IMG/VR virus record: IMGVR_UViG_3300034101_005859
Span: 1 to 64,000 of that record
Source of the DNA: a virus
Length of the DNA stretch: 64,000 nucleotides
Reading direction: 5' to 3' (one strand)
The position numbers and the translations under genes are program-made. A model generated the notes under the pieces. The model did no database searches and was not told where the DNA came from. It was given only the letters and a program-made list of their open reading frames with translations. Shown piece by piece: positions 3,230-44,614 of the stretch (positions within the stretch are counted from its first letter, which is position 1; each line of letters begins with the position of its first letter).

Positions 3230-3233
3230 ATGT

Positions 3234-3240
3234 TATTTAT
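3234..3240 (-). promoter_or_regulatory. ATAAATA late-promoter-like box abutting the Ntn hydrolase start
   Basis: ATAAATA on the minus strand, ending 5 bases from ATG 3229. T4-type late promoters are a TATAAATA box about 6 bases before the transcript start, which would put the transcript start at or next to the ATG. Confidence 0.35.
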
Positions 3241-3322
3241 GCAAAACATTCACAACAAAAGTTAAAATAATTTAAGACCTCATCTTTTGAAGATAAAATA
3301 TTGTTTATATTATAAATACTAA

Positions 3323-4852
3323 TTATTTTTTCTTTTTCTTTGACTCATACAGAGCCTTCATCTTCTCAGAACGACAAGGCTTACACATAGTACAATATCC
3401 ATCACGCTTGCTCTTGTCAGGACTAAATTGCTCAAATAATTTAACTTCCTTACACTTATTACATTCCTTCTTACCATCACATGAATGGGGATTATCTTTC
3501 CTCAAACTCAATTTAGGTTTGCTGCCAGCTATATGCCCTCCCTCACGCTCACAAATGTATCGCCCATTCCTAGCTATGTTCTTGTCATAAGTCAGCCTCA
3601 GAGCCGTATGAACCTCATTACAGAAGGCACAGGGGACTTCTACAGTTTTTGTAGCTATATGTTTTTTGTAATGTTTTTTCACACTTTCATTGCGACGATC
3701 TCTTCTTTCTTCTACATAATCAATTCCTTGTATTTCTGAAAGAAACATGTCAGCCCAACAAACAGCTTTGTATTCAGAATCAAATCCCAGTTCTGTCTCT
3801 GTCCACAACTGGAATCTCCAACTGTTTTCACGAGCAATTTTCTTGTTGTCTTCAATTTGTTGCTTACATGCTTCTATTTTGAGTCTTGGTTTGACTTCAA
3901 TTATTGAAACAACGCCAGATTTGTATGTAACGAGAAAATCAATAATTCTTTCCCTTCCGTCAATAGAAGCTGTAACTTGAGTAGTATAAAAATCAACAGC
4001 TTCATCGTTGTCAAGTATTGTTGCCGCTCTTAACTCATAGCTTGATTGATAATAAATTGTTTTCGGTCTGCTTTTTTTAGTTTCATAAAAACCATGCCTG
4101 CGAGTAGCAAATGAATTTGTAACAACTTTTCTAAGTTTGTATATCCAACGCTTTTTTCCAGCGTCATAAACCTGAACCAAACCTCTTTCTTCTGCCCATT
4201 GCCTTTCTGTCATTCCTTCTGGACAGTCAACATTCTGCTTTTTTTGGCTTTGTTTGCTATAAGCCTTTTCAATATTTTCACGCTCAACATAAAAGTAATC
4301 AGGAACCAATTCACTTTCTAAAGTAAAGCCGAGTTTATCATAAACAGTTCCAAGACTGTAACGATTATCACTAAAGCTGATTATCTTATCGATTCCTTGA
4401 GCTTTTGCCCAAACTACAGCAGCATTAAATAATTTACTGGCTCCACCAACTACCCTTACATTATTCTTAAAACACATCCTATCAAGCAAAACATCTTCAT
4501 TGTTGCGATGATGTCTTCCCAAAGAAAGAACTCCTAGAAGCTCATCTCCTTCAAATATTCCAAATGCAATAATCGCAAGGGTGTTTGCTCCTTGAATGTG
4601 ATATTTATTACAGAATTTTCTCATCACATCAGTTTCAATTGCTGTTACTTTGCATTTTCTTGCAAAAACCGATCTCATGTTGTTGCTTGTGTATGAATTA
4701 ACATGTGATTTGATCTGTTGTTCTTTTTTTATGAATTCATGTTTATAGAAAAGGAATGAATTTGGATTTGTTTTGCGGGCAACTTCAAGGACTTCCTTAG
4801 CCCAATGCTTATTCTGATTCAACTCATTCATCACGATGATGTTCGGTTCCAT
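3323..4852 (-). CDS. GNAT-like / PD-(D/E)XK / zinc-finger protein, candidate homing endonuclease
   Basis: 509 residues from ATG 4852, chosen over the upstream in-frame ATG because AGAGGTG precedes it. Residues ~60-190 form the GNAT-like module found in phage homing-endonuclease-like proteins (GVLSLGRHH, RVVGGASKLF, SFSDNRYSLG, YDKLGF). Residues ~268-350 resemble a TnsA-type PD-(D/E)XK nuclease, with E273 (SSYELRA), D305 (IIDFLV) and E319-V-K321 (IIEVKPRL). Two Cys clusters follow: C408/C411/C434 and the HNH-companion motif CNKCKEV...GYCTMCKPC (C464/467/487/490/493). The gene sits alone between the capsid gene and an Ntn hydrolase, a typical spot for a mobile endonuclease. It could also be a defence or DNA-repair nuclease. 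Confidence 0.68.
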   Translation of the reverse strand: MEPNIIVMNELNQNKHWAKEVLEVARKTNPNSFLFYKHEFIKKEQQIKSHVNSYTSNNMRSVFARKCKVTAIETDVMRKFCNKYHIQGANTLAIIAFGIFEGDELLGVLSLGRHHRNNEDVLLDRMCFKNNVRVVGGASKLFNAAVVWAKAQGIDKIISFSDNRYSLGTVYDKLGFTLESELVPDYFYVERENIEKAYSKQSQKKQNVDCPEGMTERQWAEERGLVQVYDAGKKRWIYKLRKVVTNSFATRRHGFYETKKSRPKTIYYQSSYELRAATILDNDEAVDFYTTQVTASIDGRERIIDFLVTYKSGVVSIIEVKPRLKIEACKQQIEDNKKIARENSWRFQLWTETELGFDSEYKAVCWADMFLSEIQGIDYVEERRDRRNESVKKHYKKHIATKTVEVPCAFCNEVHTALRLTYDKNIARNGRYICEREGGHIAGSKPKLSLRKDNPHSCDGKKECNKCKEVKLFEQFSPDKSKRDGYCTMCKPCRSEKMKALYESKKKKK

Positions 4853-4963
4853 GTAACACCTCTTTTTCTTATTGCCCCGCAAAGGTATTATAGTAAGCAA
4901 ATTTTAGAAATCAAGGATTTTTTCAGCAATTTTAAGAAAATATTTAGATGCTTGTAAAAAGGG

Positions 4964-4988
4964 AAAACCCCGGTTTTTCCGGGGTTTT
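4964..4988 (-). terminator. Rho-independent terminator of the capsid gene
   Basis: Perfect 10-bp stem AAAACCCCGG / CCGGGGTTTT with a 5-base loop. Read on the minus strand it is followed by CCCTTTTT. It lies 34 bases beyond the capsid stop codon and separates the highly expressed head genes from the endonuclease gene. Confidence 0.85.
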
Positions 4989-5021
4989 CTTGGGTTTGCG
5001 ATAGTAAATCGTGCATAAAAA

Positions 5022-6458
5022 TCAGATGACGAAATTAGCAATACTGAGGCGTGCGTAAAATTTTGCCCCCTCACGAAGCAGCTTTTTTCCATAGCGAGTG
5101 AGAATTCCCTTGCGTGGGCAGAAGCTCTCTGGATCGAGAACAACTGGTGTCTGGGTCAATGGAACATATGGGCAGTAGAAGTATCCGCTGTCCATGTAAG
5201 AGTCGCCCTTGTAACCCATCAACAACTGATTGCTTGGGAAGAGAGGATCTTTGTAGAGTCTCCAGCGATTGTTCACGGTGCCGACATACTGGATGCCGAG
5301 TGAGCTTGTGAAGGTTTCAGAAGGTGCAGGAGCGAAACCGGCTGTTGCTGTTTCAAAGATTGAAGCAACTTCAGGTGAGGTCACGATGAAGTTTGCGCCA
5401 CCACGAAGGGTCTTTCTGTGGATGACATTGGAAATTTCGACAACCTTAACATAAAGGCTTTCGTACTTTTCCTTGATCGTTTCGCCGAGTGCAGTGTTGA
5501 AGTCCCAAGCTGAGACAGTACCTGCGTTGTTGCGAAGATCGGTGAGAACTTCACGGTCGATTTCGAGGTTGATTTCCTGAGCGAGAACAGCGGTGAGTTC
5601 AGCTTCAGCGTCAAGATTGTGCTGTGAGCGAAGATCCTGCTGTGCTTCATAAGACCATACAGCCTTGAGCTTACGGGTCTTAGCAGCGATTTCTTCTGAT
5701 TCAATTACGAGATTGATTTCAGGAAGATCTTGGTTGCACTCCATGTTGTATTCGTAGCTCAAAACTGCGTTGTTTGAGCCGGGAGCGCCGTTCCAAGTAA
5801 GGGTGAGTTCGCCTGTGGTTGTCTGAAGAGTACCAGATGTAACCTTTGGTGAAGGAGAGCCGATATCTGAGAAGGTGAAAGTTCCGCTAGCAGACACGGT
5901 GAATGTTTGAATAGCAGTAGCGCCATCATAGATAGTGCCTGTTATTGTTCCGGCAAGGATTGGCGTGTGTTCAAGAGGAGCGAACACGCTTACAACACCA
6001 GCGCCAGCATCAGTGCTGGTTGTTTCATTCTGGATGAACTGGCTGGAATAGAAGATGTCGAGATTGGCAGTACCATCGGCTCTCTGCATGAGTGAGTTGG
6101 CATCGTCGCCGGGGAATCCGCCGTTATTGTCAGCACCACGGGTAGCGCCCTTGTTGCTTGAATAACGGAAGCGGAGATAGTAGACCAAGCCGGTTGGGCC
6201 AAGGAGAGGCTGTACGGAAACGATCTTATTTGCGATAAGCTGTGGGTAGATACGACGAACAAGTGGAATTGAAATCCTCTTGAACTGTGCGACATCTCCA
6301 GTATCGGTTGAGACTTCGTTCATGAGTCTCTGGTTTTCGAGCAGAACTGCGGTAGCGGAGCGGACATAACGATCTTGAATGCCTTCAAGGAGTCCGGTCT
6401 GCTTCCAACGAGTTTCTAGCTCCCTAGCCTCGTTCAAAAATCTAGAATTAGCGTTCAT
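5022..6458 (-). CDS. Major capsid protein (T4 gp23 family)
   Basis: 478 residues forming the main shell lattice. Family signatures: ISIPLVRRIYPQLIAN with QPLLGPTGLVYYLRFRYS (residues ~63-100), TRKLKAVWSYEAQQDLRSQH (~261-280), followed by DAEAELT, and the C-terminal PRKGILTRYGKKLL. T4 gp23 is 521 residues. Here the N-terminal pre-domain is short, and residues ~160-240 hold a beta-rich insertion (TGTIYDG, GELTLTWNGAPG) between the N-terminal region and the main fold, in the place where some relatives carry surface insertions. It lies downstream of portal, protease and scaffold in the usual T4 order and ends at a strong terminator. Confidence 0.95.
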   Translation of the reverse strand: MNANSRFLNEARELETRWKQTGLLEGIQDRYVRSATAVLLENQRLMNEVSTDTGDVAQFKRISIPLVRRIYPQLIANKIVSVQPLLGPTGLVYYLRFRYSSNKGATRGADNNGGFPGDDANSLMQRADGTANLDIFYSSQFIQNETTSTDAGAGVVSVFAPLEHTPILAGTITGTIYDGATAIQTFTVSASGTFTFSDIGSPSPKVTSGTLQTTTGELTLTWNGAPGSNNAVLSYEYNMECNQDLPEINLVIESEEIAAKTRKLKAVWSYEAQQDLRSQHNLDAEAELTAVLAQEINLEIDREVLTDLRNNAGTVSAWDFNTALGETIKEKYESLYVKVVEISNVIHRKTLRGGANFIVTSPEVASIFETATAGFAPAPSETFTSSLGIQYVGTVNNRWRLYKDPLFPSNQLLMGYKGDSYMDSGYFYCPYVPLTQTPVVLDPESFCPRKGILTRYGKKLLREGAKFYARLSIANFVI

Positions 6459-8085: not shown

Positions 8086-10110
8086 TTATTTTTGTTGAAT
8101 TAAATCAGTTGCGTGAGGATCTCTTTGCCAAGCGTAGCCAAACTGTGTTAGATCATCCTTGAGTTTTCTTGCAAGTCTAAAGGCTAACTCTTTATCGCCT
8201 TTTCTTCGTGCTGAGTTAATTTGTATTTCAGCATCATTGATCATTTGTCTTGGAATGGCGATCTGACTAGAATTATCTACTTTTCCGTATTTTGTTCCAT
8301 CGAATGATTGTCCGTATCCTTCAACCATTTTTGGCATAACTGGCTTTGGAGCCATTGGGTTGTGGAGGTTTGGCCAAGTATCCTTCTGGAAACTTCCAAG
8401 ACCTTCATCATCGATTACACTTTTTTCTTTCATTTTTGCGAATAATGATTTTGGCGTGAATGGATTTTGAACATTTGGCCAAGTGTCTTTGCCATAGTTT
8501 GCAAGGGCGTTGTGTCCCATTTCATTTGAGTTGCCGTGATAAGACTTGCCATCGCTAACAGGAGCGGCATCTCTCCAGTCGCCGCTATTGTTAGAAGGAA
8601 CAGCATACTGCTTTGCGTTCCACTTGGTCATTGAGTTGTCGCCAAGAGCGTCAATTTCGACACCTTGATCCCATCCTTTTTGTGAATGATCTCCACCTTC
8701 GCTCTCGATGAGTTCTGCGAGGAAGTCAGCGATTGATTCAGCGAGTTCCATGTCTGGAAGTCTGGTTGAGTTCATAATTGCATAACATTCACGCATCATA
8801 TCGGCAACTTCGACTCTTGTTGCTTCATCTCCGCTTTCGTTTGCGATGCGGTAGATGTCGTTGAGTGCGCTGTAAAGGTCGCCAAAGATGCGAACTTCGT
8901 TGTTGTGGTTTTCATCAAGCTGGTTGAACAAATTCTGTGAAACGCTTGAAAATTCACGATAAGCGTCTTCGCAGTCATTGCAGTCGCTGCTTACATCCTT
9001 GCCGTATCCAGCGAGGTGTGCAATCTTGCGAACTCTATCGGTGAACACATTGTGTGCTGTGCGAAGAATTGCTTCTGCCATGAATGAGCAAGTATCGTCA
9101 TCGTAATTGCTGACGCTTGCTGAAGACAAAGCTGAGTCAATCTGCTGTGCAAGTTCTGTTTCGCTGATGTAAAGAATGTCTGGCCATCTGGAAACTATTG
9201 CCTCAAGGGTTTCTTCAAGAGCCCTGTTATCGCTGATATTGTTGTAACGCTTCAGATCAGACATGGCCTTGACGAAAGTTTGATCTTCACTGATATTCTT
9301 CATGTTTCCACGGAGAACTTTTAGTTCTGTGTCCATGGTCTTGAATCCCATGCTTAGAACTTTTCCTTCTTTACGGTTTTTGCTTGAAGGCATGGCCACT
9401 GCGCTTACATTGCCATTATCATCAGACTTGACTGCTGTTTCGCTGAGTACTGATCCATTTTCAACAAAATTGATGTATCCAAGAACATTCTCGCACATTC
9501 TTGCCCATTCCTTCATGGTTTTAGGCTTGAGCTTTGATGCATAGAACTTTGCCTTGCCGCTTTTTTTGCCCTTGGGGCGACCTAGCTTTGCTGCTCTTTC
9601 TGCTGGCGACATTCTGGAAATTTTTGCGTTGCGAGCAAGCTTTCTCTTAAGAATTGTTGCAGGGCTTTGCTTCTTGCCTGCGAGAGGTGATTTCTTCTTT
9701 CCGATCTTAACTGCTTCGTTTACAGACATTTCCCTCTTAACTGAAGGCATTGACATGTAAGACTCGAAAAGTTCACTTGCTGCGTTGTTGTCGTTCTCAA
9801 GAAGCTTGTCGATCATAACGCTGATTGTTTGGCGGGCTGCTGACTTTGCGCTTTCTTCTTCAACAACAAGGAGTTCAATGTTTTCAAGAATCACCTGATT
9901 GTCGGAGACAGTATAGGTGGCATGAATAAAATTGTCGTCTGATGTCTTATAAGTAACATCAGATTCACCAAATGCGTGAAGTTGTACTTCGTCAAGTCCG
10001 AGGCTTGCCGCAAGTAATTCTTCAGCTTCAATGAGTTCCTTTTCCACATGTGTCAATGAGCTTTCTTCAAGATTCTTGAAGACATCGTAAGAAATAAGTT
10101 TTCTCTTCAT
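8086..10110 (-). CDS. Large head-region protein, possible prohead core/internal protein
   Basis: 674 residues, not recognised as a named family. Its position between portal and prohead protease matches the place of T4 core proteins gp67/gp68, so a prohead core or internal role is likely. A basic segment at ~140-200 (KKKSPLAGKKQSP, GRPKGKKSGKAK) could bind DNA. Residues ~260-460 are acidic and helical. Near the C-terminus a unit occurs twice, with core KDTWPNVQNP and KDTWPNLHNP followed by PK and a short Lys/Met stretch. The end is helical again (INSARRKGDKELAFRLARK). GGAG precedes ATG 10110. It is the first gene of the block downstream of the structured intergenic region at 10111-10341. Confidence 0.7.
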   Translation of the reverse strand: MKRKLISYDVFKNLEESSLTHVEKELIEAEELLAASLGLDEVQLHAFGESDVTYKTSDDNFIHATYTVSDNQVILENIELLVVEEESAKSAARQTISVMIDKLLENDNNAASELFESYMSMPSVKREMSVNEAVKIGKKKSPLAGKKQSPATILKRKLARNAKISRMSPAERAAKLGRPKGKKSGKAKFYASKLKPKTMKEWARMCENVLGYINFVENGSVLSETAVKSDDNGNVSAVAMPSSKNRKEGKVLSMGFKTMDTELKVLRGNMKNISEDQTFVKAMSDLKRYNNISDNRALEETLEAIVSRWPDILYISETELAQQIDSALSSASVSNYDDDTCSFMAEAILRTAHNVFTDRVRKIAHLAGYGKDVSSDCNDCEDAYREFSSVSQNLFNQLDENHNNEVRIFGDLYSALNDIYRIANESGDEATRVEVADMMRECYAIMNSTRLPDMELAESIADFLAELIESEGGDHSQKGWDQGVEIDALGDNSMTKWNAKQYAVPSNNSGDWRDAAPVSDGKSYHGNSNEMGHNALANYGKDTWPNVQNPFTPKSLFAKMKEKSVIDDEGLGSFQKDTWPNLHNPMAPKPVMPKMVEGYGQSFDGTKYGKVDNSSQIAIPRQMINDAEIQINSARRKGDKELAFRLARKLKDDLTQFGYAWQRDPHATDLIQQK

Positions 10111-11768: not shown

Positions 11769-12026
11769 TCATTTTTTTGTGAACCAAAATTTATTTGCTT
11801 CTTGCAATGACTTATCTGTAATTTCGTAACCTGAATTATCGCCAATCACTGCATCGACATTGCAATGAGGGCATAAGCATGTTTTTTGATTATCTGTGTA
11901 AGATTTTATTTCACTAATTTGAAAAATTTTTCCACAATACATGCATCCAGCTTGTTTAGATGATTCAACTATTGCACGATTTTTCATCGTGACTGTTGGC
12001 AATTGGGAAACACTAATTTTAATCAT
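11769..12026 (-). CDS. Small zinc-ribbon protein
   Basis: 85 residues with paired cysteines CMYCGK and CLCPHCNVDAVIGDNSG, forming a zinc ribbon. The CPHC...DAVIGD block is typical of a small, widespread family of unknown function in bacteria and phages. Its start overlaps the portal stop as TAATG, so it is translated with the portal. It may act as an assembly or regulatory factor (inference). Confidence 0.7.
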   Translation of the reverse strand: MIKISVSQLPTVTMKNRAIVESSKQAGCMYCGKIFQISEIKSYTDNQKTCLCPHCNVDAVIGDNSGYEITDKSLQEANKFWFTKK

Positions 12027-14533
12027 TATTCACCTACGCTATAATCGATGTCTTCTATATCGGACTCTGATTCATAATCTTGTAGTTCAAGATCAAATTT
12101 TTTGACATCATCGCTGCTTGGTTCAGGCAAGATCGTTGGTTCAGATCCAGCTTGTTTAGGGGATTCTCCGCCTTCTGGAGGTGATGGCAATCCTTCTGGA
12201 GGCATAGGAGGCTGTTCTCCTTCTGGACCGGGCATCGGTGATGGGCCTCCCGGTGTAGATCCCAATTCTGGCTGATCTTGGCCTTCTTCTTGACCGGGAA
12301 TACCGACACCCAAAAGTTGTGGGTTTTGGGCCAATACTTGAAGCTTGAGATCTTCAAGCTTTTGAATCTTGAGTCTTGCGAGCATTTCATCTGCTTCATC
12401 ATTGTGATACTTGAGTATCTTAGTCATGATGTCATAGTCTGACATAAGCTGACTACTTTTGAGAGTACCAGCATTTCCATAACGGGCATTAACAACTTCG
12501 GCACGAGAAAGTTCTCTCCAATCGCTTGGAGGAGTCATTTTGACACGAAGGTCACGATAGTTTTCTTGTGGGAAACCTCTTAAAGCAAGATGCCTTTCTG
12601 CCAATTCAAGAAGTCCGTCTTCAAAGTGACTTTGTAGTCTTTCAATCATTCTTGCAAATTTGACATCTTGCGATGAAAGTGTAATCCTAGTTGCACCGGG
12701 GTCTTCATTGTTAAAATAATTCTTTGGAAAATTAAGTGCTGTCAGAAGTTTGTTTCGGAAATATACAGCATCATCAATTTCACCAAGATTCTCAGCACCG
12801 GGAAGAGTATCGATTCTTGTTCCACTATTTGGCCTGACAGGCAACCAATAATCTTCATCTTGCGCTGGTGGCATCCATCTTTCATCGACGGCATTTGCGC
12901 CAACACCACCACTACTATTAGCGACCTTTCTTTTGCGGAATTGATCCTTCATGCGATCCATAAATGCTTCGGCTTTGAATGGAGGTAATTGACCTACATC
13001 TATGTAGAAAACACGCCTTTCCGGCGCTCGAGTCAATCTGTAAACGACCATAGCATCTTCTAGTAATCTGAGGCTATGTGCTGGGGCTCTTGCTGGTTCT
13101 ATAAGGCTTTGGCCGTATGGATAAAAAGTTTTTCTATCATCTCCAATTCGGAAATGAACAACTTGGCTTGGAGCGAATCTGATTGCTGTCGTTTGGTTTA
13201 GTTCGGTATCGGTGAGTTCTACTGGTGATCCTCTAACTATTGCTTGATAATCTGGTCCTTCTTTTGATTGTTGGTATTCGATTACTCTTCCTTTTACTGT
13301 TTCGATTCGATACATTGTTTCGACAGGTAATGGTAGACATCTGTAGATGCCTTCTTTTGGATTGTCGGGATTTATTATAATTTCAACGAAGAAGTCACCA
13401 AATATGCAAAGGTTTTTGAACCAAGTCCAGCCATGACGATTTAGATTTAGCATCCTTCTGTTGAGGAAAAGGAATTCAATTTCTTCTTTGACATCCATGT
13501 TTTCAGATGTCACTTTGAGGATATTGCCGCTTTCATCTCTTTGGCAGTTATGAAGAATGACTGAATCTGTGGCGAAGCACTTGTGTTTTTCTACTGAAAG
13601 GTCGTATACTTCTTGTTCTGGTCCGGGTGATACTCCAACTACTCTTCTTGATTCTCCAAGTCCGTGCAATCTTTTGACTTCTTTGTAAGAAAATCCTTCT
13701 TTGTGCATTCTGTCTTCTATTGTGTGCCAATCCATTTCTATTTGTTGTGATATTTGTCTGGTTGTCAGTCCACCGGCTATCATGCGGCATGCACGATTAA
13801 CAATTTGGTAGTCACGGGTTGTTTTTCCAGTTTTCCAATCATCAATAAATTGTCTTTCGTGAATCCATCCTTTGGCAAATGAAAACAATCTTGGGTATTG
13901 GGAATGTTTTATTTTAGTGATATGTGTTTGTGCTGGAACACGGTAGAATGGCATGAGTTCGTCGCCAAACTTTAGTTTTCCTGTTTCTGTCCATTCGCCA
14001 TTTTTGAGAAGGACACGATGATCTTCTGTTGCGGTATAGGTTGATCCGTTGTCTAGTGTTATTTTTATAGTTGGTGCCGTTTTAACAATTCTTGGGTCGT
14101 ATGCCCAACCTAGGGTATAGTCTTTCTTTTCAAAGTCGTAGCAATAGACAAGAAAACGCTCATCTTTTTTGGTTTCAGCAAGATGTTTAATAGTTGTGAA
14201 ACCAAAAGGTGTGGATATCTTAGTATCTCCAGATATACATGCTTCGTCTGAATATACTGTCATTGACATTTCAATTTCTGGCACATTTCTGAGTCTTTCG
14301 TACTCTTTGTAGCGCATGGCACGATTTGACAGTGTGGTGGTGTCAATCATGTCGTTGGTCTGACGGTAGCTGGACATACCGCCGCTTACTTGACCATTGT
14401 TGATATCTGCGCCTAATGCTTCTGGTTGGCTAATTCCTGCCGAGATGAATTGCCTAGGGTCTTTGCGGCGAGACAAAGGGTCTGGTTCTGCCGAAAAGTT
14501 AAAAATTTTGAAAAAGTCTGACCAAATTGGCAT
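12026..14533 (-). CDS. Portal protein (gp20 type) interrupted by an in-frame intein
   Basis: 835 residues as translated; about 604 after removal of a 231-residue intein (residues 99-329). The extein parts are portal-like: RQFISAGISQPEA, PEIEMSMTVYSDEA before the insertion, then LLEDAMVVYRLTRAPERRVF, DYWLPVRPNSGTRID, and GEIDDAVYFRNKLLTALNFP, all gp20 signatures. The portal dodecamer forms the DNA entry vertex. The C-terminus is Pro/Gly/Glu-rich and acidic, ~100 residues, unusual for gp20. AAAGG precedes ATG 14533. It heads the head-gene strand, with protease, scaffold and capsid following downstream. Confidence 0.93.
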   Translation of the reverse strand: MPIWSDFFKIFNFSAEPDPLSRRKDPRQFISAGISQPEALGADINNGQVSGGMSSYRQTNDMIDTTTLSNRAMRYKEYERLRNVPEIEMSMTVYSDEACISGDTKISTPFGFTTIKHLAETKKDERFLVYCYDFEKKDYTLGWAYDPRIVKTAPTIKITLDNGSTYTATEDHRVLLKNGEWTETGKLKFGDELMPFYRVPAQTHITKIKHSQYPRLFSFAKGWIHERQFIDDWKTGKTTRDYQIVNRACRMIAGGLTTRQISQQIEMDWHTIEDRMHKEGFSYKEVKRLHGLGESRRVVGVSPGPEQEVYDLSVEKHKCFATDSVILHNCQRDESGNILKVTSENMDVKEEIEFLFLNRRMLNLNRHGWTWFKNLCIFGDFFVEIIINPDNPKEGIYRCLPLPVETMYRIETVKGRVIEYQQSKEGPDYQAIVRGSPVELTDTELNQTTAIRFAPSQVVHFRIGDDRKTFYPYGQSLIEPARAPAHSLRLLEDAMVVYRLTRAPERRVFYIDVGQLPPFKAEAFMDRMKDQFRKRKVANSSGGVGANAVDERWMPPAQDEDYWLPVRPNSGTRIDTLPGAENLGEIDDAVYFRNKLLTALNFPKNYFNNEDPGATRITLSSQDVKFARMIERLQSHFEDGLLELAERHLALRGFPQENYRDLRVKMTPPSDWRELSRAEVVNARYGNAGTLKSSQLMSDYDIMTKILKYHNDEADEMLARLKIQKLEDLKLQVLAQNPQLLGVGIPGQEEGQDQPELGSTPGGPSPMPGPEGEQPPMPPEGLPSPPEGGESPKQAGSEPTILPEPSSDDVKKFDLELQDYESESDIEDIDYSVGE
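13547..14239 (-). other. Intein in the portal protein, with helix-turn-helix-like insert
   Basis: In-frame 231-residue protein intron. It starts with the nucleophile Cys99 in CISGDTKI (block A), has TATEDHRVLL (block B, with conserved His), and ends with EVYDLSVEKHKCFA and SVILHN (blocks F/G, terminal His-Asn329). The +1 extein residue is Cys330. All splicing residues are present, so it should be active. No LAGLIDADG or HNH motif is seen. The centre instead holds a helix-turn-helix-like segment (NRACRMIAGGLTTRQISQQI), perhaps a remnant of a DNA-binding homing module. The insertion follows the conserved YSDEA motif. Confidence 0.9.
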
Positions 14534-14599: not shown

Positions 14600-15211
14600 A
14601 TGAAAAAAGTTATTTTCATATGTAGCCATTTATTTTCTGGTTCCAATCAATTATATGCCGCCATGCAACAAAATCCCCGCATTCAGGGATACAAGAGTAA
14701 AAATTTGAACAACTATGAATCAAGTATGAATATTATAAATTTGATGTCGTGCAGACACAAAGCCAATAATAATTCGGCTATTTTCATGGATGAAATTAAT
14801 TTTAATTATCAAATTTCAACTAAGAATGTTTATTCTTCATGCAAGTTTATTTATGTATTGAGAAGTCCAGAACAATGTATTCCGCAAATAATTTCTAATT
14901 TTGGTTATAGGCCTTTGAATGCTGTGAGGTATTACACATTTAGGTTGAGAAGAATTTGTGAAATGGCAAGAAATACTCCCGGTGCTGTTTTGTTGACTTT
15001 TGATGATTTGTTGAATGATAGAGGGGCTGATTTGATCAATGATTACTTAGAATTAGTAAAGCCAATTGATTTCAACCCCAATAATTTTGCTGTCTATAAA
15101 AATACTGTTAGTGATGACTTGCTGGGGTCAGTTCTCCGTTCGCAGGCTTGCGATAAGTATGAGCGATACCTGTATTTTTTGAAAAATCAATCTCTTCGTC
15201 GGCCACTGTGA
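14600..15211 (+). CDS. Sulfotransferase-like protein
   Basis: 203 residues. A P-loop-like start, KVIFICSHLFSGSNQLYAAM, matches the 5'-phosphosulfate binding loop of sulfotransferases, and KFIYVLRSPEQCIPQ matches the 3'-phosphate binding strand (R-S-P). These enzymes move sulfate from PAPS to glycans, lipids or proteins. The protein is shorter than most, with no obvious signal. The last ~100 bases overlap the convergent M14 gene, so one of the two 3' ends may be less well conserved. Confidence 0.6.
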   Translation: MKKVIFICSHLFSGSNQLYAAMQQNPRIQGYKSKNLNNYESSMNIINLMSCRHKANNNSAIFMDEINFNYQISTKNVYSSCKFIYVLRSPEQCIPQIISNFGYRPLNAVRYYTFRLRRICEMARNTPGAVLLTFDDLLNDRGADLINDYLELVKPIDFNPNNFAVYKNTVSDDLLGSVLRSQACDKYERYLYFLKNQSLRRPL

Positions 15212-16172
15212 ATGGGACAATAGGTGCTTCGTTGATGAAAAGCGAGATTGCGCCCTTTGTTTTATTGAACTCGTTGAGAATGTCTGAAAAAGATGGTTTG
15301 TGTTGATGTGTGCCGAATTCAATCACGACAGCCATTGATCCATTTCTGTAGAACCAATCAACTTCTGTTCCTTGTATTGGTCTGCTGTAAAGTTCTGCCG
15401 CATGAATTCTCTTATATCCTGTCATTTCTGACATTTTTCCAACAATTCTTGTGTAATCTTTTTCGTGAAATGATTTGTCATATCTGTCTCCGTATGGAGT
15501 AAGAATAAGTCTGCCAAATGTATGCCCAGAAATTACTGCTGATGGTCTTACTTTCCAGTAAAGATCGATTAGTGCAGCAACGCTTGGGCTGCTTTGATGA
15601 TTTGGAAATTTAGGGCTTGAAAAATCTCTGTTTGGATCAACTCCGTCAACCATTCTTGAGTCTGGATAGCTGTCTGGAGATACTACTGGAACAAAATATA
15701 AATCTCTAGTTTTGACAAGATCGGTTATTTCTCTGTTTTTATTGTATTGTTCCAATAAATTGCCAATATAGGCCATGACTATTCCAGATGCAAGAGGTTC
15801 ATTACCATGAATGCAGGCAGTAATTAGAACTTTTGGTTTTACTTTTTTTTCATCAGAATTGACACGAATGTAATAAAGGTCTGTTCCTTTTTTTGTTTTT
15901 CCATATTTTTCTACTTGAACTATTTCGCTTGCTTCTTCTTTCCATTTTTTGATTTGTTCTACTGTTTGCGGATAGGTTAAAAACTCTGGTATTTTTGTTG
16001 AAATATTAAAAGTTTTTAATTTTTCTGTTTCTTTTGATTGAATTTCAATTACTTCCGTCTCTTTTGGAGAGGAATTTATGATTATTTTAGAAGAAGACTT
16101 TTTATTGTAAGTGGCAAAAATAGCTGCCGAAAGCAGAAGGACGACAATTGTCTTAATAAGACTATTTTTCAT
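15108..16172 (-). CDS. Exported/anchored M14 zinc carboxypeptidase
   Basis: 354 residues from ATG 16172 (AAGGAG upstream; an earlier in-frame start at 16202 lacks one). Residues 5-21 are a hydrophobic signal or anchor (IKTIVVLLLSAAIFATY). Catalytic pieces of M14: H122/E125 in IHGNEP, R182 in DPNRDF, H217 in SGHTFGR, and E285 in VVIEFGTH. The zinc site is therefore complete. M14 enzymes trim C-terminal residues or split muropeptide bonds. The substrate cannot be told. An exported phage carboxypeptidase could act on periplasmic proteins or murein peptides. A TATATAGT box lies ~30 bases upstream. Confidence 0.85.
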   Translation of the reverse strand: MKNSLIKTIVVLLLSAAIFATYNKKSSSKIIINSSPKETEVIEIQSKETEKLKTFNISTKIPEFLTYPQTVEQIKKWKEEASEIVQVEKYGKTKKGTDLYYIRVNSDEKKVKPKVLITACIHGNEPLASGIVMAYIGNLLEQYNKNREITDLVKTRDLYFVPVVSPDSYPDSRMVDGVDPNRDFSSPKFPNHQSSPSVAALIDLYWKVRPSAVISGHTFGRLILTPYGDRYDKSFHEKDYTRIVGKMSEMTGYKRIHAAELYSRPIQGTEVDWFYRNGSMAVVIEFGTHQHKPSFSDILNEFNKTKGAISLFINEAPIVPFTVADEEIDFSKNTGIAHTYRKPANGELTPASHH

Positions 16173-16202
16173 AACACTCCTTGTTATAAAAGAATCCGAC
16201 AA

Positions 16203-23817: not shown

Positions 23818-24246
23818 TTATATCCCACGCAGAATTTGTCTGAATTGATCGACATCTTGACGACTGTGTTCCACCTGTTTTTCCAAAAATATTTCAAGCC
23901 ATTTGCCATCAACTCCACCCAGTTCTTCGGCATGATTGATTCTTTGAGTGTAGTTTTCAACCACTCTTGCCTCCATATCCAGAGCGTATTGAATGATTTC
24001 TTTTGGTTCTGAATACTTGAAGAATTGATTTGAATCATCGGTTGGATGTCCTCCTAATCCAACAATTACATCTGAAAATTCAGTAATATGCTTCATTTCA
24101 CTTGCTGCGTGTTCGATAAGCATTTCTTTGTATTCAACGCTATGCAGTCCAGTTACTTGGCTAGCATGAAAAAGATAGAATTTCAGATGCATCCATTCAT
24201 TTTTAAGGTCATCGTTCAGCAGCTTGATCATTTCATCTTTAGTCAT
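23818..24246 (-). CDS. Ferritin-like diiron protein
   Basis: 142 residues, all alpha. NDDLKNEWMHLKFYLFHA and EHAASEMKHITEF give the Glu and ExxH ligands of a ferritin-like four-helix bundle; LDMEARVVENYTQRI and EKQVEHSRQDVDQF give the second pair. Ferritin-like proteins store iron or protect DNA from oxidation. ATG 24246 overlaps the stop of the M28 peptidase (ATGA), so the two are translated together. Confidence 0.72.
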   Translation of the reverse strand: MTKDEMIKLLNDDLKNEWMHLKFYLFHASQVTGLHSVEYKEMLIEHAASEMKHITEFSDVIVGLGGHPTDDSNQFFKYSEPKEIIQYALDMEARVVENYTQRINHAEELGGVDGKWLEIFLEKQVEHSRQDVDQFRQILRGI

Positions 24247-25382
24247 GGCATTTCCTCTAGTGGCATGTCTTTTTGACCGTGGTCGTGAAGCAAATCCATT
24301 TCCTTGAATGACCCATAGTCAAACTCGACTCTTTCAACTGCATTGCATACGGTCCACGCCAATTCAAAACCGTATCTTGCAACTTTTTCAAGACCTTCAT
24401 AATTGATCTTGTCAGCAGTATCTCTGGGGGTGTGATAGTATTCATGCAATCCAGTATGAAGGAACGCTATCGGCACTCTTTTATTATAGAAGGGTGCGTG
24501 ATCACTTCCACCAGAGCCTCTCAAAGTTACATTTTTTGCAAAAGAATATTTTTCTGTCAGTTGCTTAATGATAAAGCCAATATCTGGCGAACTTGATCCA
24601 TCATCAAAAGCAACTGTTTTGCTTTTGCCAAGATAACCAATCATGTCCATATTCAACATGAAAATGTGTTTCTTGATATTTGGATTTCCTTTTGGGAATT
24701 TGGGATTGTTCACATAATGGATACTACCAAGAAGTCCCATTTCTTCTGCTGAGAATGCCATAAGAACAATCGTTCTTTTGTTTTGCCCTTTCATAGCAGA
24801 CAATGCTTCTGCCATTTCAATCAAGGCCGCAGTTCCACTTGCATTATCGTCTGCTCCATTATGAATCCTTCCTCCTCCTGTGCGACTGTATGTTGGACCA
24901 TATCCTATATGGTCCATGTGGGCACCAATCACAACTACTTCATCCTTAAGGACAGGATCGTTTCCTTCTAGAACTGCATAGATGTTCTGTGTAAAATCAT
25001 CGCCAATTTCATTCTTGGGGCCGGGATTGACTCTTTTGATGTTGAATTTATCGTATTCCGCTGAAAGTCCTTTGTCGTCAAATTTCTTCTTGATGTATTC
25101 AGCAGCAGTTTTATTGCCCTTCTTGCCAGACATTCTTCCTTCTAATTCATTTGAAGCAAGGTATTCAAGATGTGTCCTCAAATCGATTCTGTCGATTTTG
25201 GATATTGCCTCTGCAATTGTTAATTTGGGAGGTTCTTCTTTTTTTTCTGGTTTCTTTTCTACTTTATTTTCAAAGGGGCTTTCTGGATGATTTTGTTCAT
25301 GTTGTGAATTTCTTTCCTTATTTAACAGTATTGCCAACAGTAAGAAGCCAAGAGCCAACACGCATATGTGCAACTTTTTCAT
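24243..25382 (-). CDS. Exported/anchored M28 zinc aminopeptidase
   Basis: 379 residues. Residues 4-20 are a hydrophobic signal or anchor (LHICVLALGFLLLAILL), followed by a charged Glu/Lys/Pro linker. All M28 metal and catalytic residues are visible: H155/D157 in GAHMDHIGYG, D178 in NGADDNASG, E213/E214 in SAEEMGLLGS, D246 in LNMDMIG, and a late His in HEYYHTPRDT. This family removes N-terminal residues from peptides using two zincs. It would act in the periplasm or at the membrane. GAGGT precedes the ATG and a TATATAGT box lies ~30 bases upstream. Confidence 0.88.
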   Translation of the reverse strand: MKKLHICVLALGFLLLAILLNKERNSQHEQNHPESPFENKVEKKPEKKEEPPKLTIAEAISKIDRIDLRTHLEYLASNELEGRMSGKKGNKTAAEYIKKKFDDKGLSAEYDKFNIKRVNPGPKNEIGDDFTQNIYAVLEGNDPVLKDEVVVIGAHMDHIGYGPTYSRTGGGRIHNGADDNASGTAALIEMAEALSAMKGQNKRTIVLMAFSAEEMGLLGSIHYVNNPKFPKGNPNIKKHIFMLNMDMIGYLGKSKTVAFDDGSSSPDIGFIIKQLTEKYSFAKNVTLRGSGGSDHAPFYNKRVPIAFLHTGLHEYYHTPRDTADKINYEGLEKVARYGFELAWTVCNAVERVEFDYGSFKEMDLLHDHGQKDMPLEEMP

Positions 25383-29638: not shown

Positions 29639-30081
29639 CCCATAGTGTCAAGCAGAATTTCAATAGGCTTTATTTCAATAAAATGCACAAGGTGGTGCAA
29701 AGAATCATTGATTAACAATTTTTGATATAATTTGAAATCGCATTTAGATTCTCCTCCATCTTTATAATCAAGCAAATTTTCCGAAGTTCCTATTTTCTTT
29801 TGGATGGCAATTTTTCCTTCTCCTTCAATGTATTCTTCATCTTTATTGATGCTTGGCATCCAAATCTCAAATCCTTCATCATCTTGTTTAATGTTTGCGC
29901 CAGTTTTCGGATTATAAATTTTGTATTTACAAAAAATTTCCTGTGCTGGTTCTGATGTGTTTCCTTTTTGGAACCATACTGGTACGCAAACTCCAACTGT
30001 TTTTATTTCTTTGCCTTGATTCAGTTCATATCTTTGTTCCTTGGTAAGGTAAAGATGATGAGAAACGGTCAGTGTCGCCAT
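29635..30081 (-). CDS. Hypothetical protein
   Basis: 148 residues from ATG 30081 (GGAG upstream; an earlier in-frame ATG lies beyond the promoter-like box). Beta-rich with charged loops; ATLTVSHHLYLTKEQRYEL opens the protein. No family recognised. It faces the trypsin-like gene across a 51-base gap. Confidence 0.6.
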   Translation of the reverse strand: MATLTVSHHLYLTKEQRYELNQGKEIKTVGVCVPVWFQKGNTSEPAQEIFCKYKIYNPKTGANIKQDDEGFEIWMPSINKDEEYIEGEGKIAIQKKIGTSENLLDYKDGGESKCDFKLYQKLLINDSLHHLVHFIEIKPIEILLDTMG

Positions 30082-30097
30082 GATTGTTTTCTCCAAT

Positions 30098-30107
30098 ACT
30101 ATATATT
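30098..30107. promoter_or_regulatory. ACTATATATT box between divergent genes
   Basis: ACTATATATT (plus), 26 bases before ATG 30133 of the protease and 17 bases before ATG 30081 on the other strand. Identical to the minus-strand copy at 20591-20600. Confidence 0.4.
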
Positions 30108-30132
30108 TTACACAAATTATTGTGGAGTTCAA

Positions 30133-31029
30133 ATGCTTAAAAAATTAATTTATTCTCTTGCTTTGTGGATTTTTGCAATTACTCCTGTTAATTCATATCA
30201 AGACAATCCAAGGTTTTTTGATATTGATTCCCTTGACAGGATGCCGATTCTTGAGAGAGACAAGTTCGGCAATGAAAATCCAGCACCAATAGCTAGGCGT
30301 GGTCCTGAGTTCAGGAAATATTTGGCTCCTTCTGTAAAGATCATGGTAGGTGGAGCATCAGGATCAGGAACAATAATTCATTTCGATAATTTCAAAAAAA
30401 CAGCATATGTTGCTACATGTGGCCACTTGTGGGAACAAGGCATAATGAATGCAGAAGAAGGCAAAAAACGCAATTTGAAATGTAAAGTAATTGTTTGGTA
30501 TCACAACGACCAAAAACTAGATGCTCCTAAATCTTATGATGCAAATGTTATTTTCTATAGCTACATTAATGGCCAAGATACAGGTCTGATTACATTCAAA
30601 CCAGACTGGGAACCAAACTTTTTTCCTATTGGCCCTTCGGATTACAGGTATGTAAAGGGTCAGCATTCACATTCTGTTGGTTGTGATTCTGGAACAGAAA
30701 CAGCGCATTATGACATTGAAATGCTTGGCATAGATGGCGACGATTTGGTTACCCGCAATAATTCACCAAGGCCCGGAAGGAGTGGCGGAGGACTTATAGA
30801 TGATGATGGTAGTTATATAGGAACATGTTGGGGAACCCAGTACCGTGATGGTACTGGCAAAGGTTACTTTACACCATTGTTTGTAATTCATAAATTCTGG
30901 TCAAAACAAAAAGGATATGAATTCCTACTTAATCAAAAACAAGTAAGCGGAAATGCCAAGCAAATTAAAATCAAAGATCATAGTGGTTCAAAAGAGGAAT
31001 TCAGACCAGAATATATTTTGTTGCCCTGA
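30133..31029 (+). CDS. Exported trypsin-like serine protease
   Basis: 298 residues from ATG 30133 (GTGGAG upstream). The first ~21 residues are a signal peptide (KKLIYSLALWIFAITPVNS). The chymotrypsin-fold triad is present: H98 in VATCGHLW, D149 in GQDTGLITF, and S217 in PGRSGGGLI, which is the GDSGG-type motif with Arg for Asp. Predicted to act outside the cytoplasm. Trypsin-fold proteases with signals are unexpected in a tailed phage. It could cleave host surface or periplasmic proteins, or aid lysis. Confidence 0.82.
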   Translation: MLKKLIYSLALWIFAITPVNSYQDNPRFFDIDSLDRMPILERDKFGNENPAPIARRGPEFRKYLAPSVKIMVGGASGSGTIIHFDNFKKTAYVATCGHLWEQGIMNAEEGKKRNLKCKVIVWYHNDQKLDAPKSYDANVIFYSYINGQDTGLITFKPDWEPNFFPIGPSDYRYVKGQHSHSVGCDSGTETAHYDIEMLGIDGDDLVTRNNSPRPGRSGGGLIDDDGSYIGTCWGTQYRDGTGKGYFTPLFVIHKFWSKQKGYEFLLNQKQVSGNAKQIKIKDHSGSKEEFRPEYILLP

Positions 31030-41581: not shown

Positions 41582-44500
41582 TTACGCCGGTTTGTTGCAG
41601 GGTACTAAGGCAAAGCAGGGTTGTTCGCCATTTTCTCCAGTTAATTTTGTCACATCCAGATTGATCTTCACATCAATTGGAGCCCCCTTATAAACAAGTT
41701 CGATTTCCGGTTTTTCTGGCATGACCAACTTGATTTCCGAAGGAGCGCCTATCAATTCAATTGCAGATGGTATTCCAACAACTTGAATTTTTTCTGGTAT
41801 TCCAGAAGCATCAATCTTTATTGTTGGCATAACATTTGGAACTTCTAATTTAATTGAACTTGGAAGATTTGATGTCTCAAGCTTAATTGATGATGGTATG
41901 TTAGTGGCCAAAAGCTCTATTGTTGAAGGAACATTTTCAGAATTAATTCTGATTTCATTTGGTATGGGCACATCTGGAGCAATAATCCTAATATCAGGAA
42001 TTTTTGGCGACTCAACCCTGATTATTGCGGGTATGTCATGCAAAACCTTGATGTCTGGTATCTCGGGAATTTTCAAAGTAATTTCTGATGGTATTCCAAC
42101 TTCTTCAGCTTGGATTCTTACAGGCTCCAATGGACTGAATGAATCCTGCTCTGAAAACAAATCCTTGACTTTAGTGAATGGCGTACTTGCTGGGGCACAT
42201 TGCACGGTCACAACAGCACTCAGTTTTGGAGGAGTTCCCCACGAAACAGGGATGTAGGGCGGTGTTCCCCAATCTACTGATATAGGCCCTAATTTTGGTG
42301 CTGGGGCAAATTGAATCTTCGGGAAAGTTGGCGCTGGACCAAATGAAATTCTTGATGGCAAATCATCAATAACCTGAATGAAAAGGGGAATATCATCAAC
42401 CAGAACAATTGCATCAGGAATATCATCATAAAGCTCAATAATAGTTGGTATGTCTGATGCCAAAGTTATTGTCTCAGGAAGATCATCTGCCAAATTAATT
42501 GATGTTGGAAGATCATCATTGAGGTCTATGCTTTCTGGCAGGTTTGCAATTAAATTTATGTTTTCTGGAATAGTACCAACTAAATTTATGCTCCTTGGTA
42601 GATTTTCTACAAGTGTAATGATATCTGGTACAGTAGACTCAAGCGTAATAACATCTGGAATATCTTCCATAACATTTATTTCACTTGGTATATTATCAAT
42701 TACATTGATATTTGATGGCAAATCATGACTCAAAGAAATAACAGATGGAATTTCACTAGTAACAGAAATAACAGATGGTATGTTTCCAGTTATTGATATT
42801 AGTGTTGGTATAGTTGCCGTTACTTGAATCGAAATTATTGATGGTATTTCTAGACCAATCACAGTAATAGTTGAAGGAATGTCTTCAAGAATTGAAATTA
42901 TTCTTGTTATGTCATCAATAATTGAAATAACTGTAGGCAAGTCGTCATACAACTCAATATATGGAGGCAAATCATCCAAAAATGGTATATTGGTTGGTAA
43001 TGAGTCAAATACTGTAATAACTGGGTCAATATCATCTTCTACTATAATGACAGGAGTGATATCATCTTCTACTATAATGACAGGAGTGATATCATCTTCT
43101 ACTGTAATGACAGGAGTGATATCGTCTTCTACTGTAATGACAGGAGTGATATCGTCATTCACTATTATGATTGTTGGCAAACTATCTGTTACTACAATCG
43201 TGGTAGGCAAATCATCGTCTATTGTAATAGTTGTAGGTAAATCATCATCTACTGTAATAGTTGTAGGCACATCATCAATAATATTTATAATTGTTGGTAT
43301 ATCTTCAACAATGGCTATTGTAGTAGGAATGTCTTCTATTATTGTGATGATTTCAGGTATATCGTCATCAATGGTGATATTTGTCGGAATATCACTATTT
43401 ACATTAATTTCAGTTGGAATATCACTATTTACATTAATCTCAGTTGGCAAATCATCTACTATTGGTATTTCAGTTGGTAAATCATCTACTATTGGTATTT
43501 CAGTTGGTAAATCATCTACTATTGGTATTTCAGTTGGTAAATCATCGTTTATGTTGATTTCATTCGGAATATCATCTATTACATTAATTTCAGTTGGGAT
43601 AATATTGCCAGTGATAATAATTTCATTGGGCACAACTGAAATAATGCTGGGAACATTCAAAGGCGTAATTGAAACAATGGACGGAATGACAATAGGTGGA
43701 ACAACACTAATGACGCTTGGGACAATAATTGGCCCAACAGGCCCAATATTCAAATAAGGAAATACAATTGGTGGAATTTGTGGAGTAAGAGATGGAACAG
43801 TTATATCTGGTAGTGTAATAAAAGGAAAGTCTGGAATAGTTGGTATTGGTATTTCCAAAACAGGTGTTACAGCCTGTTGTGGAATTTCTGTTAAAACTTC
43901 TCTTTCAATCGGAGTTTGGACTATGGCACATTGGCTATTTGAAATAGTTAAAACAGGGTCGATTTTTGAGTTTGGAGCGTAAGTGTGAGTTCCACTTGTC
44001 GATGTCGTTGTAAAATTGCCATCTCCAAAATCAAGCCTGTAGTTTGTAAAAATTCCTGTAATGGTTATGGCATAACTCATGACTGTGCCAGTAACAGGGT
44101 TTTCGCTCAATATGCTTTTGTCAAAAACAACATCTGGACATGAAAAATCATCAAAAATTGGATTTAACTGTTGAAGATTTCTTATTCTCCAATCCAATGT
44201 GGTTTTGTCTGGAGTAAAGTTATATCCAATGAATTTTTCAGTCTGAACTATAGCATCAACAAGCTGATTGTGATGCTCCGCAATTACGAAACCACGAACT
44301 TCACTTCCGGCCTGAGTTTTATGAGTATGAGTCCCGCCTAAATTTCTTGAGCAACGCTTAAACTTGTTTATTTTTCCATTTTCATCATATGCAACTGAAT
44401 CGTAGTAAAATAATTCACCATCAATATTTGCAAAACCATTAGTTGACCATTGCTCTTGTAATTCTGCCGCAACAGGAACAATATCAATTTCCTGAGCCCA

Positions 44501-44614
44501 AGGCAGATTTTCTCCGCTTGTTAATGTTTCTGATGTGTTGTAAACCAGAAACAAAGTTTGTTCACTGTCGTAATTTTTAGGGTAGACAGGAGTTGGTGGA
44601 AAGTAATTGGCCAC
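41582..44614 (-). CDS. Decapeptide-repeat tail/fibre protein with PKD-like domain (GTG start)
   Basis: 1010 residues from GTG 44614. Domains: N-terminal ~130 residues ending in AEHHNQLVDAIVQTEKFIG, a module shared with the two next genes; a PKD-like domain at ~180-225 (YRLDFGDGNFTTT); a Pro-rich link; then ~42 consecutive ten-residue repeats at ~331-755 with consensus DD(L/I)PTxIxΦx, proline at every tenth position; a Cys-poor middle; and a second zone (~800-985) of looser (I/V)PSxIxL repeats. The regular strand-turn pattern suggests a beta-solenoid or fibrous shaft. An ATAAATA box lies ~31 bases upstream. No known family fits the repeat. Confidence 0.8.
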   Translation of the reverse strand: MANYFPPTPVYPKNYDSEQTLFLVYNTSETLTSGENLPWAQEIDIVPVAAELQEQWSTNGFANIDGELFYYDSVAYDENGKINKFKRCSRNLGGTHTHKTQAGSEVRGFVIAEHHNQLVDAIVQTEKFIGYNFTPDKTTLDWRIRNLQQLNPIFDDFSCPDVVFDKSILSENPVTGTVMSYAITITGIFTNYRLDFGDGNFTTTSTSGTHTYAPNSKIDPVLTISNSQCAIVQTPIEREVLTEIPQQAVTPVLEIPIPTIPDFPFITLPDITVPSLTPQIPPIVFPYLNIGPVGPIIVPSVISVVPPIVIPSIVSITPLNVPSIISVVPNEIIITGNIIPTEINVIDDIPNEININDDLPTEIPIVDDLPTEIPIVDDLPTEIPIVDDLPTEINVNSDIPTEINVNSDIPTNITIDDDIPEIITIIEDIPTTIAIVEDIPTIINIIDDVPTTITVDDDLPTTITIDDDLPTTIVVTDSLPTIIIVNDDITPVITVEDDITPVITVEDDITPVIIVEDDITPVIIVEDDIDPVITVFDSLPTNIPFLDDLPPYIELYDDLPTVISIIDDITRIISILEDIPSTITVIGLEIPSIISIQVTATIPTLISITGNIPSVISVTSEIPSVISLSHDLPSNINVIDNIPSEINVMEDIPDVITLESTVPDIITLVENLPRSINLVGTIPENINLIANLPESIDLNDDLPTSINLADDLPETITLASDIPTIIELYDDIPDAIVLVDDIPLFIQVIDDLPSRISFGPAPTFPKIQFAPAPKLGPISVDWGTPPYIPVSWGTPPKLSAVVTVQCAPASTPFTKVKDLFSEQDSFSPLEPVRIQAEEVGIPSEITLKIPEIPDIKVLHDIPAIIRVESPKIPDIRIIAPDVPIPNEIRINSENVPSTIELLATNIPSSIKLETSNLPSSIKLEVPNVMPTIKIDASGIPEKIQVVGIPSAIELIGAPSEIKLVMPEKPEIELVYKGAPIDVKINLDVTKLTGENGEQPCFALVPCNKPA
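43031..43160. repeat. 30-bp tandem repeat array in the decapeptide gene
   Basis: Unit with core CAGGAGTGATATCATCTTCT and an ACTATAATGA end, about four near-identical copies, encoding DDITPVITVE repeats on the minus strand. Confidence 0.85.
43441..43560. repeat. 30-bp tandem repeat array in the decapeptide gene
   Basis: Unit CAGTTGGTAAATCATCTACT plus ATTGGTATTT, three to four nearly exact copies, encoding DDLPTEIPIV repeats. Confidence 0.85.

Follow-up and report, generated by a model that had tools for sequence, protein, structure and literature searches.

The window, by which is meant the whole 64,000-nt stretch (positions 1 to 64,000) of the virus record IMGVR_UViG_3300034101_005859 that was analysed in the present work, carries on its minus strand an intact open reading frame of 509 amino acids, which opens with an ATG at 4852, closes with a stop codon at 3323-3325, and begins 169 bp behind the stop codon of a major capsid gene of the T4 gp23 type. 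A position behind the capsid terminator had been proposed for this gene in a sequence-only reading of the DNA, and it is borne out by the Pfam assignment of the capsid gene and by a terminator-like hairpin that lies between the two genes (Table 1). The inserted segment starts immediately past the T run of this hairpin (4989-4963). A candidate promoter of the sigma-70 type lies upstream of the nuclease gene, in a region in which the count of promoter-like sites is not above that of shuffled sequences. A search of the genome for copies of the nuclease gene, including the part outside the window, gave one match.

Table 1. Features of the capsid-nuclease region, in window coordinates
Feature	Position	Strand	Evidence or remark
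T4 gp23-type major capsid gene, proposed target gene	5022..6458	-	Pfam Gp23, E 4e-87
Last 73 nt of capsid gene (YGKKLLREGAKFYARLSIANFVI-stop)	5022..5094	-	Left exchange junction, proposed target/co-conversion region
Terminator-like hairpin behind capsid gene	4963..4989	-	Between capsid and nuclease genes
Candidate sigma-70-type promoter	4887..4914	-	TTGATT-16-TATAAT, upstream of nuclease gene
Mobile unit, 1,655 bp	3300..4954	-	Absent from empty allele L014 (blastn, L014 vs window)
CDS, GNAT(Mom-like)-TnsA nuclease-zinc module, proposed free-standing homing endonuclease	3323..4852	-	509 aa
GNAT/Mom-like module, residues 36-241	4130..4747	-	Pfam Mom, PHROG 3339, Foldseek Mu Mom 8bv8
TnsA-type PD-(D/E)XK nuclease, residues 250-385	3698..4105	-	Alignment A3, Foldseek 1t0f, Pfam PF08722
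Catalytic codon E273	4034-4036	-	
Catalytic codon D305	3938-3940	-	
Catalytic codon E319	3896-3898	-	
Catalytic codon K321	3890-3892	-	
Zinc module, residues 390-509	3326..3685	-	Invariant Cys in A3, PHROG 1035, tblastn
Right exchange junction, codons 389-405	3640..3688	-	Changepoints in 14 pairs with different heads
Zinc-module stretch, 288 bp	3353..3640	-	99.65% DNA identity with L011/L012 TnsA-Zn allele

The gp23-type capsid is found at 75-100% identity across environmental phage contigs of up to 532 kb, and the capsid of the window is 81% identical to that of a 595-kb uncultured phage record. Isolated phages, among the matches listed, reach only ~30-42% capsid identity, and the clade of this capsid seems to have no cultured member. 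The head gene cluster of the window holds a second selfish element, an intein (Pfam Intein_splicing, 2e-10, residues 114-329) in the T4-type portal gene at 12026-14533 on the minus strand (Pfam Portal_T4, 5e-75); no endonuclease domain was found in this intein with Pfam at E 0.001. Elsewhere in the window lie three cell-type peptidases (M28, M14 zinc carboxypeptidase and trypsin-like, at 24243-25382, 15108-16202 and 29968-31029) and, at 41582-44614 on the minus strand, a protein of 1010 aa that is rich in short 'DDLPTEIPIV'-type repeats and has no Pfam match.

The product of the nuclease gene had been described in the earlier reading as a three-part protein that joins a GNAT module, a TnsA-like nuclease and a zinc finger, and Pfam, the PHROGs and the fold comparison agree on these three parts. 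The Pfam matches to Mom (residues 68-251, E 7e-10), to GNAT (residues 96-176, E 1e-4) and to TnsA-like N (residues 299-352, E 7e-6) each exceed the curated cut-off; the GNAT module matches PHROG 3339 (1e-41), and the zinc module matches PHROG 1035, endonuclease VII (2e-7), and resembles in tblastn the zinc parts of endonuclease VII-type phage proteins. In the AlphaFold2 model of the whole protein (mean pLDDT 88.6) a low-confidence linker, residues 242-251, separates the GNAT from the nuclease. The best Foldseek match of the N-terminal part is phage Mu Mom (8bv8, E 4.9e-9) and that of the C-terminal part is Tn7 TnsA (1t0f/1f1z, E 1.2e-5), with which the weak TnsA matches (1e-4) of a PDB sequence search are consistent; ubiquitin matches in the PDB sequence searches are repeat artefacts and were disregarded.

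The four residues that had been named as the nuclease core, E273, D305, E319 and K321, are numbered exactly and align in all 37 sequences of the TnsA-Zn alignment A3, where they are invariant, and the protein thus combines the TnsA fold with the catalytic E, D and E/Q-x-K of the TnsA-like PD-(D/E)XK family (PF08722). The two proposed Cys clusters likewise correspond to two zinc sites, C408/C411/(H415)/C434 and C464/C467/C490/C493, of which the seven cysteines are invariant among the same 37 relatives. The dN/dS ratio is ~0.03-0.33 in most full-length pairs for all three domains, and 0.42 for the zinc part of one close pair, the window and L001; since purifying selection acts on all three domains, the gene is a real one and not a chance open reading frame. 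No full-length GNAT-TnsA-Zn homologue was found among phage isolates in a search of a phage collection.

The GNAT module had been likened to those of phage endonuclease-like proteins, and this likeness can be refined: the module is Mom-like, and Hef-type homing endonucleases (PHROG 3339/559) carry the same module at their C-terminus. The Mom family (PF25680) is recognised both by the Mom-type GNAT fold and by the conserved active-site motif, in which Mom S124 aligns with S139 of a GGASK motif (the 8bv8 structure is named as the inactive mutant S124A) and SFxDxR..G..Y is common to the two proteins. The module matches 300 records in the phage collection, in up to 10 places per genome, and in the four phages that were examined (Caulobacter phage Cr30, Vibrio phage Bakedbeans, CP30A and RaK2) it follows a Vsr-like nuclease in every case; the Hef-type gene lies directly behind the major capsid gene in Cr30 and Bakedbeans, and between other core genes in CP30A and RaK2. 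The module evolves under strong purifying selection (dN/dS 0.03-0.11), and it is optional, since TnsA-Zn alleles that lack it occur at the same site and others bear zinc or repeat modules in its place.

The earlier reading had proposed that a clean presence or absence in close phages, on comparison of the region 3230-5021, would support homing, and such a pattern is found in two lineages. The contig L014, aligned with the window by blastn, is 99.3% identical to it over 8090-4955 and 99.65% identical over 3299-986, and in L014 the two parts are joined directly, so that it lacks exactly the 1,655 bp (window 3300-4954) that hold the nuclease gene; no target duplication was evident by eye at the insertion boundary between L014 and the window. 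In the second lineage, in which the flanks are 90-98% identical, L084 is empty, its capsid gene being followed after ~110 bp by the next gene; the slot holds a zinc-TnsA protein in L082 and an HNH-GNAT fusion in L087. Occupied and empty alleles at one site, which are a hallmark of homing, are therefore represented by L014 against the window and by L084 against L082 and L087. The contigs L011 and L012 are near-identical to the window on both flanks and have a different gene in the slot, namely one for a 277-aa TnsA-Zn protein without a GNAT, which is followed by a 189-aa open reading frame of no known family. The close relatives all come from metagenome contigs. The empty twin is represented by one contig of 5.45 kb, L014, though most alleles recur in several samples.

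The TnsA-type domain also forms the T4-type head completion nucleases (gp4), and the adjacency of the gene to the capsid gene might suggest that it encodes a packaging or head-maturation nuclease of this kind, a suggestion with which a match of residues 258-339 to PHROG 218, head closure (2e-8), and BFVD matches to head completion nucleases would agree. The gp4 proteins resemble the present one in placing a TnsA-type domain in a T4-like phage, but gp4 is a virion nuclease, conserved in all close relatives, whereas the gene described here is dispensable and mobile: it is missing from near-identical phages, as the empty alleles L014 and L084 attest, it is interchangeable with HNH and Vsr-like enzymes, and it is separated from the capsid gene by the terminator-like hairpin. 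The head-completion role was accordingly rejected, and a gp4-like function is considered extremely improbable. Tn7-like transposition was also rejected. The nuclease fold and the E/D/E-x-K catalytic set are like those of Tn7 TnsA (PF08722; 1t0f, 1f1z). TnsA operates with TnsB and TnsC in transposition, whereas here no TnsB is fused or adjacent, no TnsB-like protein having been found among the neighbouring open reading frames that were read, and neither a target duplication nor the transposon ends expected of a Tn7-like element were evident.

The association of the nuclease family with the capsid gene was evaluated in two directions. A scan seeded with the gene family, which used zinc-module patterns and no capsid query, recovered 66 contigs with a TnsA or zinc part, not all of which are independent viruses, and a gp23-type capsid gene was adjacent in 66 of 66. 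Recurrent association with one conserved target gene is a second mark of homing. The capsid genes in question are 75-100% identical, and the distance from the nuclease to the capsid end is mostly 115-215 bp; where it exceeds ~400 bp, other sequence lies between, in many cases another nuclease, for instance an antisense zinc-repeat-TnsA gene. In one case (L157) the nuclease is convergent to the capsid gene, on the opposite strand. Double occupancy behind the capsid gene, with an antisense gene followed by a sense GNAT-TnsA-Zn gene, was observed in L041, L120, L124 and L128, the antisense gene of L041 encoding a zinc-repeat(DUF7487)-TnsA protein. In L119 a second capsid-like match, perhaps a duplicate or a remnant, ends at 8899, ~5 kb behind the first (~3822).

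The converse scan, seeded with the capsid and counting loci with at least 700 bp downstream (n=68), recognised a nuclease module behind the capsid in 46 loci and none in the other 22. The nuclease is therefore not a conserved phage gene, and the slot is instead a hotspot at which nucleases of three or more folds occur. The modules that occupy it are GNAT-TnsA-Zn, TnsA-Zn, Zn-TnsA(-Zn) in either orientation, HNH, HNH-GNAT and Vsr-like-GNAT.

If the nuclease has spread into resident genomes, then it should be younger than the genes that surround it, and the synonymous divergences are graded in this way. Between the window and L001, dS drops from 1.13 (scaffold gene) through 0.47 (capsid gene) to 0.09 (nuclease gene), and between L001 and L019 the corresponding values are 0.69, 0.07 and 0.01. 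Identity climbs toward the nuclease, the final 60 nt of the capsid gene being identical in the window and L001. The gradient is what would be expected from a recent spread of the nuclease that dragged the capsid flank along with it.

The capsid ends themselves bear the traces of exchange. Pairs of capsid genes were chosen that differ by at most 5% in the 5' 600 nt, which leaves a breakpoint free to fall anywhere in the remaining 840 nt. With different downstream alleles, 20 of 25 such pairs, many of which share members and are not independent, diverge by 5.8-22.5% in the last 120 nt, and the four pairs with the same downstream allele diverge there by 0-1.7%. When lineages are counted instead, seven of the eight with a clear breakpoint have it within the last 190 nt, and in four of the eight its distance from the end is 72-73 nt (L008/L011; L024/L028; L030/L031/L034; L120/L123/L125 vs L155/L158); in most informative lineages the breakpoint lies 57-100 nt before the end of the gene. 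The changes are synonymous in the sequences that were read, the window lineage retaining the encoded YGKKLLREGAKFYARLSIANFVI. Recoding in L030/L031 affects an internal stretch, from ~-76 to -27, and leaves the final 27 nt identical. The pairs L104/L149 and L030/L034 have different alleles and yet a capsid end in common.

Assembly chimerism was rejected as an explanation for most of these mosaic ends because contigs of different samples carry the same alleles (for example L001-L005; L011 and L012; L120-L123; L030, L033 and L040), although single contigs such as L014 remain unproven in this respect. The simplest reading is that they record co-conversion of flanking target-gene sequence, as expected of homing, after a cut near the 3' end of the capsid gene, with the recoding also protecting the carrier. 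The cut site is placed there by the breakpoints alone, and their positions may in part reflect where homology permits a crossover, since a crossover resolves only in conserved sequence.

A second exchange junction lies within the nuclease gene, where the zinc module begins. Among alleles that differ in their heads, 14 pairs show a rise in DNA identity from 41-58% to 76-100% at residues 389-405, so that the heads differ upstream of this point and the DNA is common downstream of it. The amino acid identities of the TnsA and zinc parts are 41% and 87% for the window and L011, 41% and 94% for L001 and L010, and 45% and 95% for L105 and L055. Exchange extends to the cargo that follows the zinc module: the window has no gene there, L001, L007 and L010 have a methyltransferase, and L011 has the 189-aa open reading frame. 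From these swaps of head and cargo it follows that the slot has two constant anchors, the 3' end of the capsid gene and the zinc module. The methyltransferase gene is of Type II (L001 7524-8198, and also in L007 and L010; PADLOC MTase_II, 3e-40); in these three contigs it either overlaps the nuclease stop codon or lies directly against it, and it is absent from the window allele. The L011 open reading frame (4880-5449) overlaps the stop codon of the TnsA-Zn gene, and its DFDIIYNDKRFDVKTKK resembles a further PD-(D/E)XK motif.

Exchange at the capsid end could in principle take place without any contribution from the nuclease, if the capsid 3' end were a general recombination boundary and the nuclease an interchangeable passenger gene rather than the driver. 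About one third of the capsid loci have no recognised nuclease, downstream cargo genes are swapped too, and a capsid-end breakpoint also separates L024 and L028, neither of which has a recognised nuclease, from which it follows that recombination at the capsid end is not tied only to recognised nucleases. A passive role would nevertheless not account for the dominance of a single slot by nucleases of at least three folds, for the finding of the TnsA/Zn family only at the capsid slot, for the invariance of the catalytic residues, or for the nuclease being the youngest segment, and it is judged very improbable.

The explanation that is regarded as highly probable is that the gene is a mobile, site-specific, free-standing homing endonuclease directed at the 3' end of gp23-type capsid genes. 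The protein would be expressed from its own promoter. To judge from the fold and the conserved residues, its TnsA-type PD-(D/E)XK domain would act on a co-infecting phage, cutting close to the 3' end of the capsid gene at a site bound by the zinc module and the N-terminal module. Repair from the carrier genome would then place in the recipient a copy of the nuclease cassette and of the terminal part of the capsid gene, and the pattern that this step predicts, consisting of empty sites, replaced capsid ends and a nuclease younger than its flanks, is seen. The synonymous recoding of the carrier capsid end, which is observed, would block self-cutting, and rival nucleases would be swapped by recombination between the two anchors, at which mosaic junctions are seen. 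The GNAT is a head that some alleles lack, and it is related to the DNA-modifying enzyme Mom. The self-mobile element that had been suggested from the insertion point alone thus gains support from the empty alleles, the capsid association and the pattern of co-conversion; it is one allele in a pool of mutually replacing nuclease cassettes rather than a single gene.

The relationship to Mom raises a different interpretation, in which the protein is a one-protein system for restriction-modification or superinfection exclusion whose Mom-like domain marks the phage's own DNA and whose TnsA-type domain destroys unmarked DNA of the host or of rivals. The same has been proposed for the Mom-REase fusions of jumbo phages (Iyer et al. 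2021, PMC7824862), which also combine a Mom-like GNAT with a REase-fold nuclease, and the retention of Mom-type residues in the GNAT under strong purifying selection, as well as the Type II methyltransferase gene at the nuclease stop codon in L001, L007 and L010, would suit it. It does not explain, however, why the gene should be restricted to the position behind gp23 capsid genes (66 of 66 contigs) or why a recoded capsid end should travel along with it, and the same site is also taken by TnsA-Zn alleles without a GNAT and by HNH enzymes. Moreover, Hef-type GNAT fusions occur in up to 10 copies per phage genome and lie, where they were read, between core genes, as homing genes do, and PADLOC matches no defence family in the 509-aa protein. 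A restriction-modification role is therefore thought improbable, and the genomic evidence at this locus favours homing.

Within the homing interpretation, the preferred reading of the GNAT is that it serves the recognition of target DNA and perhaps also its modification. It is conceivable, though rather unlikely, that the Mom-like domain acylates adenines at or near the capsid target in the carrier, which would make the protein a homing endonuclease with its own modification immunity, and that the overlapping Type II methyltransferase does a similar job in the sister alleles. If this were true, the element would be a hybrid of a homing gene and a restriction-modification system, and the recurrence of Mom-like modules with unrelated nucleases (TnsA, Vsr-like and HNH) would be explained.

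Several known systems share individual features with the locus. The Hef-type enzymes (Cr30, RaK2, CP30A and Bakedbeans) have the same Mom-like GNAT and are encoded by free-standing genes between core phage genes, but in these the GNAT is C-terminal, behind a Vsr-like nuclease, while here it is N-terminal, before an unrelated TnsA-type nuclease and a zinc module; only the GNAT is common, and the protein does not belong to the Hef type, which includes hef of phage U5 and for which the likeness was established on Hef-like proteins other than the U5 Hef itself. The segD gene of T4 is a free-standing homing endonuclease gene in the same genomic slot, between gene 23 and gene 24, but it belongs to the GIY-YIG family and is antisense to gene 23; its activity has not been determined and its target is unknown (PMC2988022). 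Free-standing enzymes that have been studied cut hundreds to thousands of bp from their own gene (PMC2988022), unlike the breakpoint signal observed here, which adjoins the nuclease gene. The T5orf172/HNH homing genes (Barth et al. 2023, PMC10448857) undergo domain shuffling and form HEG islands, and they are alike in lying near essential genes and exchanging DNA-binding and nuclease domains; TnsA and GNAT receive no mention in that work, and its sections consulted here describe no fixed two-anchor exchange at a capsid end.

It was thus already known that free-standing homing genes lie near essential genes, and that co-conversion and domain shuffling occur (PMC2988022, PMC10448857); what appears to be new is the GNAT-TnsA-Zn architecture and the two-anchor exchange of cassettes. 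In a literature coverage that was incomplete, no description was found of TnsA-type homing endonucleases, of this architecture or of two-anchor capsid-end exchange, nor was any work found that links Hef, homing endonucleases, GNAT and phages; judged by title and abstract, the few works that bring homing endonucleases together with GNAT and bacteriophages, or with TnsA and phages, do not seem to describe such proteins.

On the interpretation favoured here, the TnsA-type nuclease would join the repertoire of likely homing endonucleases, and the Mom-like GNAT of the Hef-type enzymes, which has so far been read as a part of restriction-modification, would be placed in a homing context. The target of T4 segD and the role of the GNAT become directly testable questions. 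The end of the major capsid gene would be a contested harbour for selfish nucleases across the T4-like phages (TnsA, HNH and Vsr-like enzymes, and GIY-YIG in T4), with the 3' end of the capsid gene being rewritten when the occupant of the slot changes. Recombination at gp23, which is widely used as a marker gene for the diversity of T4-like phages, may then be nuclease-driven.
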